A stretch of DNA of 64,000 nucleotides, taken from Leptolyngbya sp. NIES-2104 (GTDB lineage: Bacteria > Cyanobacteriota > Cyanobacteriia > Leptolyngbyales > Leptolyngbyaceae). The notes below the pieces were generated by a model that worked only from the letters and a program-made list of their open reading frames with translations, made no database searches and was not told where the DNA came from. The stretch spans positions 4,712,001 to 4,776,000 of the forward strand of contig NZ_BBWW01000001.1 in assembly GCF_001485215.1 (NCBI RefSeq). The letters run 5' to 3'. The translations under genes and the position numbers were made by a program. The first letter of the stretch is position 1. Each line of letters starts with the position of its first letter. Positions 20,183-53,556 of the stretch are shown one piece after another.

Positions 20183-20809
20183 ATGAGTGCAACTCTGATT
20201 CAAAGTCCCGATCGAGTCATCTTACGAAACATTAGCTGGCAGTCTTACCAGTCTCTTGTGCGTGACTTTGAGTCAGAGCCTTGTTTGCGTCTGACTTACG
20301 ATCGTGGAACTTTAGAAATTCGGATGCCACTTGATCCACACGAATCCTTTAAGAAATTGCTGGGACGATTGATCGAGGCAGCGACCGAAGAACTTGATCT
20401 AGAGATTCGCAGTCTGGGATCTCGGACGTGCGATCGCGAAGATTTATCCAAAGGATTAGAGCCGGATCAGTGCTATTACATTCAAAACGAAGCACAGGTT
20501 CGCGGTGTTGCTCAAATTAATTTAGGGCACTTTCCGCCGCCTGATTTAGCGGTTGAAGTGGACATTACTTCGAGTTCACTCAATCGCTTCTCGATTTATG
20601 CTGCTTTGAACGTGCCGGAAGTGTGGCGATTTGATGGGGAATCGTTGACGATTTACTCGTTGCAAGCAGGAGAATATCAGATTTGCGATCGCAGTCTTGC
20701 GTTACCGATTCTCACCGCAGCGGATGTGATGCGCTTTCTGGGACAGTATTCTAGTATTGGTGAGAATCGTTTGATTAAGCAGTTTCGGCAGTGGGTTCGT
20801 AATCACTGA
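20183..20809 (+). CDS. Uma2 family (DUF820) restriction-endonuclease-like protein
   Basis: 208 residues. The PD-(D/E)XK-like core is visible: LTYDRGTLEIRMPLDPHE (N-terminal part), then a GLEPDQCYYI segment, PPPDLAVEVDITSSS with the Asp and Glu of the active site, and VPEVWRFDGESLTIY. Cyanobacteria encode dozens of these proteins; they are predicted nucleases of unknown role. It follows gyrB by 5 bases and its end overlaps the converging rRNA methylase by 7 bases. A second family member is at 32700-33251. Confidence 0.85.
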   Translation: MSATLIQSPDRVILRNISWQSYQSLVRDFESEPCLRLTYDRGTLEIRMPLDPHESFKKLLGRLIEAATEELDLEIRSLGSRTCDREDLSKGLEPDQCYYIQNEAQVRGVAQINLGHFPPPDLAVEVDITSSSLNRFSIYAALNVPEVWRFDGESLTIYSLQAGEYQICDRSLALPILTAADVMRFLGQYSSIGENRLIKQFRQWVRNH

Positions 20810-23503: not shown

Positions 23504-26500
23504 CTAATTTCGATCGCTCATTTGATGCAATTCACCCATTGCCGCTACGATCGTTTCCGCTTCTCCACTAATCCGCCATAAAGTGCGACTCGCTTCCTTA
23601 CTCACTAGCTCATATTCACCCCGAAACGCCTCGATTAGTGCTGGAATCGCTGATTTTGCTTCATGACCAATACAGCCAAGTGCATAAGCCGCCACCCATC
23701 GAACTTGCCAATCTTCATCCTTCAGTGCAGCGATCAGTGCTGGAATCGCAGGTTTTGCGGCTGAATTAAAACTTGCTAACACCCAAGCTGCACTGCTACG
23801 AACATAAGGCGCTTTTGCATCTAAAGCGCTCACTAAAGCAGGAATCGAACTCACACCCAATTTTCCAAGGGTTGCGATCGCTTCACTGCTGACTCGTCGA
23901 TCGTCATCCCGCAACCGTTCGACCAGTGCTGGAATTGCCGTCCGCGCTTCAGGACCGATATGCCCGATCGCTCTTGCGACTTCCCGCCGAATGCACCAAT
24001 CGCGATCTTGAAATTCCCGCACTAAAGCAGGCAACACATCTTTAGAAGCAGACCCTAGTTCGCCCAGTTCTCGAATCGCTTCTACGCGAGCGATCGTATC
24101 TCCAGCGGAAAGCATCGGAGTGAGTCGTCTCAGGCGTTGATCAACCTGCGATTTGCGTAAGACTTCTGCACTCAGTCCAACTCGCTGCCCTAATTGTTCC
24201 ATTACAAAGTCGGGCACATCTATCTCAGTACTACGAGTCAGACAACAATCACGCATGGCTAAGAGAAAGCCTTGAATCGTGTCAGGTGAACCGGGCATCG
24301 CGTCTGCTTGCATTAACCACTGACTCCACAATGCTCGATCGCTTTGATATTGTTCAACTAAATGCAGCGCTGCCAAACATTCTGCAAGTGGATCGAGCGC
24401 GAAACAGATTTGATCTTGAGCCGGACCGATCGCTTGAACAATCCGCAATCGCTTTTCTAAATGTTTTAGTCTAGCTTTAACGGTTTCCTCATCAGCTTCA
24501 GTTTGAGATTGTAGTGCATTTAGAATCGCTTCTCGTTTTGTAGGAGCGGGACGGTAATAGTGTTTCAGACATTCCCAAGCAATAATCTTGGTATCTTCGT
24601 GAACGGTTAAATTGTCTGGTTCATCTTCTGCGGTGTCGCGATTTAACTCATTGAGATAGCTCAACATTAAGTCTGGAATGTTATCCGGCAAAATGCCTTC
24701 ACTACCTTCTTTCTTCGCGATCATCTGCTCAGCGTAGAGCTTTGCTAAGAGAACGGTGATGTTTCGCTGTCCGACCATTCTCGATAGCTGTCCGCAGGCA
24801 TCAAAATATTCTGGATCGGTGAACAGTTCTCGCTTGTGTCGTTGATTGAGATAAGCTTCGAGAAATGACGATAAGCGATTCCCTTCAATTCGGAGCGGTT
24901 TTACAGTCGTTTTGGGAACTTCGTCTAGCGTTTCTTCCACTCGCGAAGTCACGATCAGCGCATTAGCGGGAAAATCTGGGTGTCCGGGACGAATTTCTTG
25001 ACGCGTTTCTTCGCTTAGTTCAGATAAGCGATCGACAATTACTAAAATCCGTCGCTGCCTCAAAAGCTTTTCGAGAAACTCATCGGTAATCGGCTCTGCC
25101 GCATCGATTAGAGCTTGCAACTGTCCGCGAATGGCTTCCCGAAATGGACTCTTTTCTCCTGGCAGCTTGAAGTCTAATTCTTGCTCGATCAACACAGGTA
25201 ACATGCGATGACGACTTAACCGCTCGAATTTGCTATCAGACATTGCCCATTTTGCTAACTGACAGGCGAGACTCGTTTTACCGATACCGCCTTCGCCCCA
25301 GATTAGTAAGCATTGCCGCCCATCCCAGAATGTCATGTGCAAATCATAGCTACAGAGTTCTGCGATCGCAGTTCCATCCATCACCACCGGAATCGGAATG
25401 TAGACTTTACGATCGCTGACCGTATTCTTATGCGCGAATGCTTCTCGTGCAACTTCAATTTGCTTTTTCACCCAAGAATCTAACACGCGAGGATGATAGT
25501 GAAGCCAACCAATAAACAACACAAAGCGCAACGGAATTTTGATACTTCCTCCTAAAGGGCTGGGAATTTCAAAATCTGTATAAGGTTGCAGTGCGTTATT
25601 GAGTTTGAGTAACCAGAGCGGACGAATAAGCAATACTATCAACCATAGAGATGGCATCGATAATATATACAGACCGATTAATGCGATCGCAGGATTCGCC
25701 TGTGACCACTCTAGAACCCGCTCAAACAGACGGGAATCCTTTTCGTTTCTCAACGATTTGACCGCTCGACGAACCATATCCGTCACATCTTCGTTAAATC
25801 GAGCGCTTGGATCTTCTAACGTCGTTAAAGCCATTTCCAAAGCTCCGAAAGCGGTCACTAAATCGGTCGCTGATAACTTTGCCGCTTTATCCTGCAACAC
25901 GCCTGCCAGTCGAGAAATTGATGCTGCCGCGTTCGTTCGTACACCCGCGTTTTCATCTTTTAGTCCATTGACTAAATCGGGTAACGCCGATCGCGCTTCG
26001 AGTCCAATTCGACCGAGTGCAATCGTCGCCTGCGATCGCACATCTTTATCTGGATCTTTTAACGCTTGAGTGAGTTCGGGCACCGCTAATTTTGCATCGG
26101 CTCCGATGCGACCGAGTGCGACTGCCGCCCAAGACCGAGTATTGCGATCGGGATGCTGCAATGCCTGTCTGAGTTGCGGAACGGCTGCGATCGCTTCTTT
26201 CTCAAAGCTTCCGAGTGTGGATGCCGTTTTCACCCGAATTTCTAAATCTGGATCGCTGAGCAATTTTGCTAAGAGCGGAACGGCTGATTTGGCTTCTACT
26301 CCTAACTTTCCAAGCGTCACGATCGCGGCGAGTCGCACGTCTCGTTCTGGTGCATTTAACGCATCGGTCAACGGTGACACCGCTAGTTTTGCCTCGGTTC
26401 CGATTGCCCCGATCGCATTAATCGCTTTCACTTGCACAGTTCGATTCGGATCAGTCAATCGATTGATTAGCTCTGGAACTACATCTTTTGCCGCACTGCC

Positions 26501-26959
26501 AAAATTCCCCAAAGCTTGAACGGCTCCGATTCGGATATCGGCATCTTTATCACGCAGCACGCTTACCAACGGCGGAATGGCTTCTTTTCCAGGCTCTTCG
26601 ATTTTTGATAACGCCGCCAGAGTCGCTAAGCGAACTTCCTTAGAAGGACTCTCGATCGCTTCCATCAACACCGGAGTTGCAGTCCGGGCGTTTAGTTCAC
26701 CCAGTGCCCAGATTGCAAATACTCTCGATCGCTGTGGTTCTTTTGAATTCTTCGCAAGACTGACTAAATTATCGATCGCAGGTTTGCCGAGCTTTCTAAG
26801 AGCCGCGATCGCCGATTGAGACTGTTCTGTCGCTGCTAATTTGCGAATTTCTGCGGGGCTGGTTTGGGCAGAAACTGCGATCGGACTGAAAGCAACGGTC
26901 AAACAAAGTAACGTAACCTGGCTGGCAAATGAGAACAGTTGACGGGTGCGCGATGCCAT
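23504..26959 (-). CDS. HEAT-repeat / transmembrane / NACHT-like NTPase / HEAT-repeat protein
   Basis: 1151 residues from ATG 26959 (a TTG at 26974 is also in frame). Order of parts: signal peptide (1-31, ending AVSAQT), about nine HEAT/PBS-lyase-like repeats (35-350; units such as AVPLLAKLLSDPDLEIRVKT), a hydrophobic segment (about 423-447), a second short one (about 475-487), a STAND-type NTPase with Walker A GEGGIGKTS (555-563), Walker B RILVIVDRL (637-645) and sensor-like ALIVTSR (667-673), a helical region, and four or five further HEAT repeats (about 955-1130). The predicted topology puts the first HEAT array outside the cytoplasm and the NTPase inside. STAND NTPases work as ligand-triggered switches. 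Ligand and output are unknown. Confidence 0.85.
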   Translation of the reverse strand: MASRTRQLFSFASQVTLLCLTVAFSPIAVSAQTSPAEIRKLAATEQSQSAIAALRKLGKPAIDNLVSLAKNSKEPQRSRVFAIWALGELNARTATPVLMEAIESPSKEVRLATLAALSKIEEPGKEAIPPLVSVLRDKDADIRIGAVQALGNFGSAAKDVVPELINRLTDPNRTVQVKAINAIGAIGTEAKLAVSPLTDALNAPERDVRLAAIVTLGKLGVEAKSAVPLLAKLLSDPDLEIRVKTASTLGSFEKEAIAAVPQLRQALQHPDRNTRSWAAVALGRIGADAKLAVPELTQALKDPDKDVRSQATIALGRIGLEARSALPDLVNGLKDENAGVRTNAAASISRLAGVLQDKAAKLSATDLVTAFGALEMALTTLEDPSARFNEDVTDMVRRAVKSLRNEKDSRLFERVLEWSQANPAIALIGLYILSMPSLWLIVLLIRPLWLLKLNNALQPYTDFEIPSPLGGSIKIPLRFVLFIGWLHYHPRVLDSWVKKQIEVAREAFAHKNTVSDRKVYIPIPVVMDGTAIAELCSYDLHMTFWDGRQCLLIWGEGGIGKTSLACQLAKWAMSDSKFERLSRHRMLPVLIEQELDFKLPGEKSPFREAIRGQLQALIDAAEPITDEFLEKLLRQRRILVIVDRLSELSEETRQEIRPGHPDFPANALIVTSRVEETLDEVPKTTVKPLRIEGNRLSSFLEAYLNQRHKRELFTDPEYFDACGQLSRMVGQRNITVLLAKLYAEQMIAKKEGSEGILPDNIPDLMLSYLNELNRDTAEDEPDNLTVHEDTKIIAWECLKHYYRPAPTKREAILNALQSQTEADEETVKARLKHLEKRLRIVQAIGPAQDQICFALDPLAECLAALHLVEQYQSDRALWSQWLMQADAMPGSPDTIQGFLLAMRDCCLTRSTEIDVPDFVMEQLGQRVGLSAEVLRKSQVDQRLRRLTPMLSAGDTIARVEAIRELGELGSASKDVLPALVREFQDRDWCIRREVARAIGHIGPEARTAIPALVERLRDDDRRVSSEAIATLGKLGVSSIPALVSALDAKAPYVRSSAAWVLASFNSAAKPAIPALIAALKDEDWQVRWVAAYALGCIGHEAKSAIPALIEAFRGEYELVSKEASRTLWRISGEAETIVAAMGELHQMSDRN

Positions 26960-27321: not shown

Positions 27322-27576
27322 CCTAACCTGACGCTTCGCGCTCTTCGATCGAATTTCACTTTCGTTAAGTATTTATTCTTAATGCTGAGCCTTTCTGGGG
27401 TTCAGTGATTTCACTCAATCGTTTGCATAGATTAATTCAGAGTTTAAACTTTCTTTAATTTGTATTCACCTTTTCTAATCATTTCCCTATACTGATTTGC
27501 ATGAGAGCGGCAACTGAACCGCCAGCGAACAAGTTTTCGTACTACCAAATAAACCTTATTTACTAGGAGTAAAGTG

Positions 27577-27951
27577 ATGACCTTGGCAAACAGTCAAAGC
27601 CTGGAAAATTCTGCTATCTTGTTTAACCTCAAAAGCTTCTCTGTTTGGGTTTTTACGCTGACTGTCTGCATGATTGTGGTCGGATTTCCAATGTTTATTT
27701 TGGTGGTTTCGCTTAGTGCTTTAGCAGCATTTGTTCTCGATGCGATTCTGCCGTTTAGTTCGATTCTGTTTGTCTCCGCTCTGGTCATTGGGGTTCATGC
27801 GTTCGGCATTATGTTTGCCTCGGCTTGGCTAACCTCCAAAGGCATTCATCCTCAAGAAGTTGAAATGTTCCGCTGGTTAAACGGTAAGGAAAATCCTTTA
27901 CATACTTCTGTGTATGCGTCCTGCCCGCTGACCTGCGAAATCGCTGAATAA
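27577..27951 (+). CDS. Small membrane protein, unknown
   Basis: 124 residues from ATG 27577, with AGGAG seven bases upstream. Two or three hydrophobic helices are clear (VWVFTLTVCMIVVGFPMFIL, and FVSALVIGVHAFGIMFASA). The C-terminal 35 residues are polar with two Cys near the end. I do not recognise a family. A terminator directly follows, so it is probably transcribed alone. Confidence 0.65.
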   Translation: MTLANSQSLENSAILFNLKSFSVWVFTLTVCMIVVGFPMFILVVSLSALAAFVLDAILPFSSILFVSALVIGVHAFGIMFASAWLTSKGIHPQEVEMFRWLNGKENPLHTSVYASCPLTCEIAE

Positions 27952-32584: not shown

Positions 32585-32620
32585 GAGAACTCCAAACAGT
32601 TGAATGCTTGGAGTTCTTTA
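32585..32620 (+). terminator. pdhC terminator
   Basis: GAACTCCAA (32587-32595) pairs with TTGGAGTTC (32608-32616), followed by TTTATAT. Confidence 0.75.
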
Positions 32621-32699
32621 TATAATGCGCTTATGGTCTAGTGCAATTGTTTCGATGCTGCTAGATTTTGCATTCCTTAAAAAATCTGAGTTTGGAATC

Positions 32700-33251
32700 A
32701 TGACGATCAGCACACTGAAATGGACGATCGAACACTATCACCAAGCTGTAGAGGCGGGCGTATTCGATGATGTTCACGTTGAATTATTAGATGGAGAATT
32801 AGTTGAAATGCCGCCGGAAGGTCTGCCTCATGCCAGTTTAAGCAGTGATGCGGGTGATTATTTGCGCGATCGACTTAGAAATCGCGTCAAAATTCGAGAA
32901 GGACACCCCGTAACGTTATCGAACAATTCTGAGCCAGAACCGGATTTAGCGATCGTTCAACCGCTGGGAGAAGTCTATAAAACTGAACATCACCCTTATC
33001 CTGAAAATATCTTTTGGCTAGTCGAATACTCAGAATCGAGCCTTGAAAAAGATTTGAAACTGAAAGCGAGAATCTATGCGGCAGCAAACATTCTTGAGTA
33101 CTGGGTGATTAATCTCAGAACGAGAGAACTGATTGTGTTTCGCGATTCATTGAATGGAGAATACCAGTCGCGATCGACCTTAACCAGCGGCATGATTCGC
33201 CCGATCGCTTTTCCAGATGTCGAAATTGAAGTCACACGCCTGATTCGATGA
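32700..33251 (+). CDS. Uma2 family (DUF820) restriction-endonuclease-like protein
   Basis: 183 residues from ATG 32700; longer frames upstream include the pdhC terminator region and are unlikely. Core motifs: VELLDGELVEMPPEG (N-terminal), SEPEPDLAIVQP with an active-site Asp, FWLVEYSESSLEKDLKLKARIYAAA with Glu and Lys, and ILEYWVINLRTRELIVFRD. This is a more canonical Uma2 protein than the one beside gyrB. Predicted nuclease; biological role unknown. Confidence 0.88.
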   Translation: MTISTLKWTIEHYHQAVEAGVFDDVHVELLDGELVEMPPEGLPHASLSSDAGDYLRDRLRNRVKIREGHPVTLSNNSEPEPDLAIVQPLGEVYKTEHHPYPENIFWLVEYSESSLEKDLKLKARIYAAANILEYWVINLRTRELIVFRDSLNGEYQSRSTLTSGMIRPIAFPDVEIEVTRLIR

Positions 33252-42274: not shown

Positions 42275-42661
42275 GGGGCTGTAACGGTTTCGACAGGTTG
42301 GCGAACGTTCTATCGAGATGCAGGTCGAGAGGGAGTCCACTCTCGTAAATCTAGGCTCAAAACAATAGATGCAAACAACATCGTACCTTTTGCTCGTAAA
42401 ACTGCACCTGTTGCAGCATAAAACACCTCTAATTCAGGTTCGAGCGCTTACGGTCTGACACCGTTAAAGGCAGTAAGCAAACCCCCAACGGTCGCTCTAG
42501 GACTTCACCTCTGGTTGGCGTTCTAGCTAAGACAATACCAGAGCATCCTATTGTCCGGGATAAAGGACAGTTCCCGCTTCGAGGATCAGAGAAGCTAAAC
42601 CTGTGAACGATCGAGGAATCAATACCCAGTTTGGACACGGGTTCGACTCCCGTCAGCTCCA
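42275..42661 (+). ncRNA. ssrA: Transfer-messenger RNA (tmRNA)
   Basis: The 5' end GGGGCTGTAACGGTTTCGAC and 3' end GGGTTCGACTCCCGTCAGCTCC are the tRNA-like halves; GGGGCTG pairs with CAGCTCC as the acceptor stem. The CCA is not encoded. The internal frame beginning at about 42370 gives the tag ANNIVPFARKTAPVAA followed by TAA, a typical cyanobacterial SsrA tag. tmRNA with SmpB rescues stalled ribosomes and marks the peptide for proteolysis. One-piece form, not permuted. Confidence 0.98.
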
Positions 42662-42676
42662 CTTTAATTTACAGCT

Positions 42677-52173: not shown

Positions 52174-53556
52174 TTAGTCAAGGTTCGGCATCGACAACAC
52201 GGGTTCAGTTTCGCGATCGATTCCTTTCTCGAAGCCTGCAACTGCCGCACGTGCGCGACCTGCATGCCACAAGTGACCGACCAAGAAGAAGAAGCCCATG
52301 ATGAAGTGGAAGCTTGCCAACCAAGCACGGGGGTTCACATAGTTGAACGAGTTGATTTCCGTTGCAACACCACCCACCGAGTTGATCGAACCCAAAGGTG
52401 CGTGAGTCATGTACTCAGCCGCACGGCGAACTTGCCAAGGCTGAATATCGTTCTTGATCTTGTTCAGGTCAAGACCGTTCGGACCCCGCAGCGGTTCCAA
52501 CCAAGGACCCCGGAAATCCCAGAAGCGCATGGTTTCACCACCGAAGATGATTTCACCAGTCGGCGAGCGCATCAGGTACTTACCAAGACCCGTCGGACCT
52601 TGAGCAGAACCCACATTCGCACCCAGCTTTTGGTCACGAATCAAGAAGGTCATTGCTTGCGCTTGTGATGCCTCAGGACCCGTCGGACCGTAGAACTCAC
52701 TGGGGTAAGCGGTGTTGTTGTACCAAACGAAGATAGAAGCGATGAAGCCCATTAAGGACAATGCGCCCAAGCTGTAGGACAGGTAGGCTTCACCTGACCA
52801 GACCAATGCACGACGCGCCCAGCCAAACGGTTTGGTCAAGATGTGCCAGATACCGCCTGCAATACAGACGATTCCAACCCAGATATGACCGCCCACGATG
52901 TCTTCGAGGTTGTCTACGCTGACGATCCAGCCTTCACCACCGAAGGGAGCCTTGGTGAGATAGCCGAAGATCTTAGCAGGGTTCAGAGTCGGGTTCGTGA
53001 CCAAACGGACATCACCACCACCGGGTGCCCAAGTGTCATACAAACCACCGAAGAACATTGCTTTCGCAACCAACAACAGCGCACCTGCACCCAACAGGAT
53101 CAAGTGATAGCCGATGATGTTGGTCATTTGGTTCTTGTCTTTCCAGTCGTAGCCGAAGAAAGACGAGTACTCTTCAAGGGTTTCAGGTCCGCGAACTGCG
53201 TGGTAGATTCCACCCAAACCGAGAACGGCAGAGGAAATCAAGTGCAGAACGCCCACAACGAAGTAAGGGAAGGTGTCAATCACTTCACCACCCGGTCCCA
53301 CACCCCAACCTTGGGAAGCCAAGTGAGGCAGCAAGATCAGACCTTGCTCGTACATCGGTTTTTCGGGGATAAAGTGCGCGACCTCAAACAAGGTCATGGC
53401 ACCCGCCCAAAACACGATCAGACCAGCGTGGGCGACGTGAGCACCCAGTAATTTACCAGAGAGATTGATTAAACGAGCATTACCAGCCCACCAAGCGAAT
53501 CCAGATGATTCTTGGTCGCGGTTGCCTGCAAATGAAGGATTAGAGAGCGTTACCAC
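52174..53556 (-). CDS. psbC: Photosystem II CP43 antenna protein
   Basis: 460 residues from GTG 53556 ([11 protein letters not shown]), inside the psbD end; AAGAGG nine bases before this GTG supports it. An ATG at 53592 would add 12 residues ([12 protein letters not shown]) and is the alternative. CP43 binds chlorophyll and gives ligands to the Mn cluster; the loop with [14 protein letters not shown] has the needed Glu and Arg. Six membrane helices with conserved His are present. It overlaps psbD by 17 bases with the GTG start, an arrangement conserved in cyanobacteria and plastids. Confidence 0.95.

Follow-up and report, generated by a model that had tools for sequence, protein, structure and literature searches.

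Does the gene at 23504–26959 of this window (the whole stretch of 64,000 nucleotides analysed here, from Leptolyngbya sp. NIES-2104) encode an NLR-like switch that is anchored in the membrane and carries its sensor outside the cytoplasm? NTPases of the NLR type are regarded as monitors of the cell interior. The original prediction had proposed that an outer HEAT array could sense an extracytoplasmic partner and signal through the membrane to a STAND NTPase. We examined this proposal by comparing the predicted protein with its relatives and by structure prediction.

Gene and domain layout

The open reading frame ran on the minus strand from an ATG at 26959 to a stop at 23504, and the opposite (plus) strand was full of stops and non-coding. 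The coordinates and the length of 1151 residues predicted earlier were correct, and so was the anatomy (a signal peptide, about nine HEAT repeats, a transmembrane (TM) segment, a STAND-type Walker A, Walker B and sensor, and about five more HEAT repeats), as judged by Pfam, hydropathy, AF2 models and motifs; an NCH4 domain had been absent from that description. The gene was present in seven of eight genomes of the genus, source genome included, and the full-length orthologues kept the whole architecture at 78–86% identity, more than chance would give. The source genome is 6.4 Mb in size. In the gene tree, its closest relatives with names were Pseudanabaenaceae cyanobacterium LEGE 13415, Phormidium tanganyikae and strain FACHB-63. 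The features were as follows.

23504–26959, minus strand: CDS of the SP-HEAT-TM-NACHT-NCH4-HEAT protein, 1151 aa (ORF; orthologues in 7/8 genus genomes)
26867–26959, minus strand: predicted Sec signal peptide, residues 1–31, cut between VSA and QT (sequence; family comparison with controls)
25733–26857, minus strand: predicted extracytoplasmic HEAT array, residues 35–409, about nine repeats in a 33-residue register, zero cysteine (Pfam, AF2, cysteine count, register)
25625–25693, minus strand: predicted TM helix, residues 423–445 (hydropathy, isolated helix in AF2, family position and charge bias)
25340–25624, minus strand: conserved, predicted cytoplasmic juxtamembrane region, residues 446–540, motifs RPLWLLK and YHPRVLDAWV (alignments)
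24350–25339, minus strand: NACHT-type STAND NTPase, residues 541–870 (AF2 core pTM 0.79; PDB fold search)
25274–25297, minus strand: Walker A GEGGIGKT, residues 555–562 (48-member alignment)
25019–25045, minus strand: Walker B LVIVDRLSE, residues 639–647 (48-member alignment)
24941–24958, minus strand: sensor motif LIVTSR, residues 668–673 (TSR in 48/48 aligned members)
24170–24298, minus strand: NCH4 (PF22731), residues 888–930 (70.9 bits against a cut-off of 27)
23534–24097, minus strand: predicted cytoplasmic C-terminal HEAT array, residues 955–1142, about five repeats (AF2 helices, Pfam)

The signal peptide reads MASRTRQLFSFASQVTLLCLTVAFSPIAVSA, with QT following the cleavage site. The N-terminal array matched Pfam HEAT_2 at 3.6e-75, and the ~18 helices modelled by AF2 across residues 35–409 correspond to about nine HEAT repeats. 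Hydropathy of the TM segment reached a KD mean of 2.36 at residues 427–445, the AF2 helix spanning 423–445.

Identity of the core

The core was modelled on its own with AF2, since a full-chain fold search against the PDB was swamped by HEAT/importin folds. The best solved PDB matches of residues 447–950 were NAIP5, NLRP3, NOD2 and NLRC4, which together with the core pTM satisfied the expectation of a NACHT fold (NBD-HD1-WHD-HD2); because TM-scores reached just 0.50, the match is one of fold only.

In an alignment of 48 members, Walker A followed the pattern GxxGxGK[ST] (GEGGxGKT in the family), with E556, G557, G558, G560, K561 and T562 invariant and G555 found in 47. Walker B residues D643, S646 and E647 were invariant; the residue following its aspartate was R or H in 47 of the 48, where the STAND/NACHT pattern hhhhD expects a small residue, with acidic residues further downstream (a Rhizobium relative has DGLSE). 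The invariant TSR agreed with the sensor 1 pattern hhhTSR. In the motif LDPLAEYLAA, D856 (D in 44 of 48) occupied the position where NLRs usually have the WHD histidine. The Pfam NACHT score of the window protein, 23.2, lay just below the gathering cut-off of 26.7, and several relatives exceeded it (up to 37.3). NCH4 was well above its own cut-off and served as a family marker, all its matches in 41 family-level genomes lying in family members. Distant NACHT-like ORFs at three loci (L197–L199) did not match the Walker A patterns applied and were dropped as uninformative outgroups. On motifs, fold search and NCH4, the core is a NACHT-type STAND NTPase, as the original prediction had identified it, and resembles that of NLRs; ligand-driven ADP/ATP exchange and oligomerisation are inferred, without biochemistry.

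Predicted membrane topology

Signal peptides and TM segments were assigned by crude hydropathy rules written for this analysis. Under one rule for all proteins, a signal-peptide-like N-terminus was found in 84 of 93 family members, compared with 105 of 396 neighbouring proteins and two of 107 internal controls. Among the nine members that failed, five had a visible signal peptide just beyond the rule and four were broken, contig-edge or IS-disrupted ORFs, so that homologues genuinely lacking the signal peptide and TM segment, which would have refuted the topology, were not met. Cleavage sites across the family were of the type A-x-A followed by Q. A search for orthologues with the same TM position placed the segment ~128 residues upstream of Walker A in the majority of members, and the predicted cytoplasmic flank of the TM was net positive (mean +2.2 against +0.8 on the other side).

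Cysteine made up 0.12% of the N-terminal outer domain and 1.55% of the remainder, a 13-fold difference, and in 82 of 82 members the outer domain had the smaller share. The HEAT fold alone does not explain this depletion, because the C-terminal, predicted cytoplasmic HEAT arrays of the family contain 1.10%. In the full-chain AF2 model (mean pLDDT 84.7, pTM 0.51), residues 423–445 formed a separate helix behind a low-confidence hinge (411–419) and were not buried in a soluble fold, the second outcome that would have spoken against a membrane segment; at this pTM the relative placement of domains is left undetermined by the model. A second TM after residue 445 was considered at a hydrophobic stretch near 476–490, stronger in some relatives, and was rejected, since the models gave two short helices there and a second crossing would place the NTPase outside. 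By comparison and prediction, this is a single-pass membrane protein whose N-terminal HEAT array is exported to the periplasm or the thylakoid lumen, two compartments that could not be distinguished.

Distribution and modular architectures

Of 42 genomes in its own taxonomic family, 22 carried the core, as did 70 of 218 in another cyanobacterial family and 15 of 386 in a phylum-wide sample. As far as names tell, the best 80 named loci belonged to filamentous cyanobacteria, except one Planctomycetota and one Chromatiaceae MAG; samples of these two groups (392 and 369 genomes) returned only the seed genome in each.

A quick tree of 90 members put the proteins whose core is flanked by two HEAT arrays into one supported clade of 17 rows (SH-aLRT 100), 16 of them labelled with both arrays and the 17th (L063) having an N-terminal array interrupted by a frameshift. 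Sixty-two of the 90 carried an N-terminal array but no domain beyond the core, which leaves these proteins no other repeat array for recognition. A few members (L136 and L137) had no N-terminal HEAT and only a short, apparently disordered outer linker, with signal peptide and TM kept. Four relatives in two separate clades had a C-terminal FGE-sulfatase domain, called by Pfam in L132 and L139 and by sequence motifs in L138 and L157. In the Rhizobium phaseoli plasmid protein WP_257784980.1, a predicted signal peptide was followed by a YCF48/BNR propeller, a TM near 729–747 and a NACHT core 26% identical to that of the window protein, with the TM-side and core motifs and the TM position kept; as read from its sequence, a YCF48-type beta-propeller is what stands in place of the outer HEAT array.

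The outer domain as the variable part

Within the genus, dN was 0.222 for the N-terminal HEAT array, against 0.042 for NACHT and 0.062 for the C-terminal HEAT array, at similar dS; all segments were under purifying selection (dN/dS well below 1), and no dS step separated outer from inner parts. Substitutions in the window's genus were not clearly concentrated on either face of the HEAT repeats, and a recognition-face reading was not supported. These and the following divergence figures are simple Nei-Gojobori counts from one genome per species, and repeat alignment is uncertain at 45% identity.

Sharper differences were seen in relatives. One genome (G1339) contained five family genes in tandem (locus L237), four of which had outer domains 44–56% identical and cores 82–98% identical. 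For three of these copies the TM and core were 95–97% identical (dS 0.10–0.17) and the outer domains 45–51% (dS 0.71–0.86), identity stepping from ~0.3 to ~1.0 at EKDSRL, 18 residues ahead of the TM marker. Such a step is as expected if gene conversion homogenises the inner part and the outer parts stay distinct. A two-gene version of the tandem array was present at another locus (L238). Independently of this array, in Planktothrix sp. PCC 11201 (L123) and two relatives (L166 and L167), the gene lay at one shared locus, where the flanks and the signal-peptide end were ~90–92% identical as DNA and the core was 92–95% identical; the outer domains between them were 36–51% identical, and much of their length was not alignable as DNA. 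On these comparisons the TM-NACHT core is conserved and the outer domain behaves like a cassette that can be exchanged, identity changing abruptly at the membrane.

Genomic context

The neighbours were housekeeping genes (gyrB, miaA, a SpoU methylase, rsmB, a 2-oxoacid dehydrogenase E2 and an epimerase), and within the genus the gene was single-copy, vertically kept and syntenic. That no effector domain or partner gene is adjacent, as noted originally, held on wider comparison, which gave no effector profile and no neighbour, effector or partner gene conserved across the family. A small membrane gene (27574–27951), divergent and adjacent in the genus, was rejected as a partner; 38 of 41 family genomes carry it, irrespective of whether they have the NACHT gene, which makes it a core gene.

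Neither defence-island context nor mobility, the marks looked for in an anti-phage system, was met in these housekeeping surroundings without a conserved partner. No phage or viral-contig relatives were found, and plasmid relatives were few. PADLOC matches were only HEAT or P-loop cross-matches, none of them specific to a known defence family, and the window protein gave no Avs profile match with E up to 1. Where Avs proteins have an N-terminal enzymatic effector, no effector profile was found and SP-HEAT-TM stands in its place. Targeting of the FGE relatives by DGRs was not supported, with no RT or TR at the loci read and no template match in the genome of the one FGE relative tested (G022).

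Comparison with known systems

The NACHT core fold is shared with animal NLRs (NAIP5, NLRC4, NLRP3 and NOD2), in which adaptor domains are N-terminal and LRRs C-terminal. We know of no NLR with an exported N-terminal ectodomain and a single-pass TM.

Avs and bNACHT25 defence proteins are likewise bacterial NACHT or STAND NTPases, some with NACHT C-terminal helical domains; bNACHT25 carries NCH1 (PMC12169576) and the window protein NCH4. Unlike these, the window protein lacks any effector of the nuclease, protease or SIR2 type, is predicted to span the membrane, and has its recognition-like domain at the N-terminus. The KAP family, including Tmn, comprises membrane-associated P-loop NTPases that are anti-phage in one case (PMC11846954), and the title of Aravind et al. 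2004, as cited there, describes TM segments inserted in the NTPase domain. The window protein does not fit this arrangement: its single predicted TM (423–445) lies ~110 residues upstream of Walker A at 555, an exported domain precedes it, and the core model has no insert.

FGE- and CLec-STAND proteins are diversified by DGRs (PMC10907252, PMC8195603). The combination of STAND and FGE is common to our four relatives, and a diversified sensor on a conserved NTPase is a shared idea; unlike those proteins, the window protein has no FGE domain by Pfam, so that it is not a DGR-diversified STAND sensor of this kind, and diversification concerns the outer HEAT domain. Some DGR-target NACHT proteins of Thiohalocapsa have been predicted at the membrane or in the periplasm (PMC10907252), and the idea of a NACHT protein at the membrane is therefore not wholly new. 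NblB, CpcE and CpeY have HEAT_PBS-type repeats like those of the window protein, which differs in being predicted as exported and fused to TM-NACHT; all NCBIfam scores lay far below their cut-offs (120 against 300 and 88 against 330 bits), so that the protein does not qualify as an NblB/CpcE HEAT lyase. We found no description of an SP-HEAT-TM-NACHT architecture in the open-access literature (subscription papers were outside the scope).

Receptor or alternative functions

The reading that we favour, at odds only somewhat better than even, is an NLR-like receptor that spans the membrane and whose extracytoplasmic sensor is diversifying. The signal peptide would export the N-terminal HEAT array and the helix at 423–445 would cross the membrane, a conserved juxtamembrane segment of 95 residues linking it to the cytoplasmic NACHT core, which has NCH4 at its end. 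If a ligand bound outside the cytoplasm, or the outer arrays clustered, the signal might then pass via the TM helix and let NACHT leave its closed ADP state and form an ATP-bound oligomer; in the window's clade, the C-terminal HEAT array may offer a docking surface in the cytoplasm or a second input. The cysteine bias and the outer diversification lend independent support to the original interpretation; ligand binding and outside-to-inside signalling remain inference. A constant export signal, TM and NLR-like switch with an exchangeable outer domain, as deduced across the relatives, form a receptor-family pattern that supports this reading more strongly than the window alone.

Several points weigh against a receptor. 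Data on ligand, activity and localisation are lacking, neither an effector nor a partner gene is conserved, and the genus shows no clear repeat-face bias; L136 and L137 keep signal peptide and TM without the N-terminal HEAT; and repeat turnover can diverge arrays without selection for recognition. Characterised antiviral STAND proteins usually sense C-terminally and act N-terminally (PMC10907252), a polarity opposite to that of an outer sensor which, by analogy, counts against it.

The main rival adopts this polarity: the cytoplasmic C-terminal parts (HEAT, or FGE/C-type lectin in some relatives) would sense, and NACHT assembly would cluster the TM and outer array as a membrane-disturbing effector. 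It draws on the dispensable N-terminal HEAT of L136 and L137 and on the C-terminal FGE-sulfatase domain of four relatives, a fold proposed elsewhere as an antigen sensor (PMC10907252). It must also accommodate the 62 of 90 members without any C-terminal domain past the core, and the outer exchange for a beta-propeller, which resembles a recognition-domain swap. Effectors are usually conserved, and the hypervariable part here is the N-terminal, not the C-terminal domain. We regard this alternative as unlikely.

An ATP-driven scaffold or assembly factor of the envelope or thylakoid, its outer HEAT array a chaperone-like clamp and its variation a matter of repeat turnover under weak constraint, would involve no signalling switch at all. 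The single-copy, vertically kept, syntenic gene among housekeeping genes, the dN/dS well below 1 in every segment and the propellers of YCF48 type, by name photosystem assembly factors, all suit such a role; the patchy distribution, the paralogue arrays and the sharp, recombination-like boundary at the membrane would be unusual for an assembly factor. We consider it rather improbable. In the lineage of the window itself, with its single-copy, syntenic gene and no dS step, a housekeeping scaffold with drifting repeats is not excluded.

That the protein is simply cytoplasmic, its hydrophobic N-terminus and 423–445 helix not being membrane segments, can still be argued only in that the topology is supported by prediction alone, and is scarcely credible given the family-wide signal peptides with their common cleavage type, the fixed TM position, the depletion of outer cysteine, the isolated helix in the AF2 model and the TM kept where a propeller replaces the outer domain.

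Significance

Returning to the receptor reading, the sharp difference of outer domains from gene to gene in the relatives, next to a near-identical switch, is as expected of a surface receptor family, the function being inferred. If true, a bacterial family in which one TM links an NLR-like NACHT with an exported, exchangeable domain would represent the NLR in the form of a surface receptor. Such a family would offer a simple system for studying the passage of a membrane signal into a STAND switch, and whether receptor repertoires are kept by multicellular bacteria; the hypervariable-cassette pattern opens the sensor hypothesis to direct testing. As a tentative extension, which we hold possible but doubtful, multicellular cyanobacteria may keep an envelope repertoire of such receptors, with a constant signal peptide and TM-NACHT and a hypervariable exported recognition cassette kept distinct by recombination and diversification, for recognition of non-self (allorecognition, or phages, predators or competitors) before cell entry.

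Relatives of the NACHT protein

At locus L237 (2578–17650), five family genes were arranged in tandem; their inner parts were almost identical and their outer domains divergent. A relative of this type with a propeller-TM-NACHT architecture was found in a protein annotated as "YCF48-related" on a Rhizobium phaseoli plasmid (L202:3523–7323). Further relatives (at loci L132, L138, L139, L157 and L203:5338–8655) carried a C-terminal FGE-sulfatase domain, which terminated in a variable-looking RGGSW...GFRVV stretch. The gene of an FGE-type relative on plasmid p057_J of Nostoc sp. C057 was broken into two ORFs. The family member at L155 (genome G022) ended prematurely within the HEAT array, beside transposase-like sequence, and is probably a pseudogene.

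Other genes and RNAs

The following features were located in the window:
20183–20809 (+), Uma2 gene
27574–27951 (+), gene for a 125-aa membrane protein
32604–33251 (+), Uma2 gene
42275–42664 (+), tmRNA, encoded tag ANNIVPFARKTAPVAA
52174–53592 (-), 472-aa ORF
52959–53145 (+), IsrR antisense RNA (Rfam match, 163 bits)

The 472-aa ORF lay antisense to the IsrR RNA and is presumably isiA or a relative of it. The two Uma2 genes, whose products have a putative restriction endonuclease fold, flanked the NACHT gene, one on each side and at most 12 kb away. The 125-aa membrane protein matched no Pfam family above the cut-off; its gene was found in 38 of 41 related genomes and is an uncharacterised core gene of this group.
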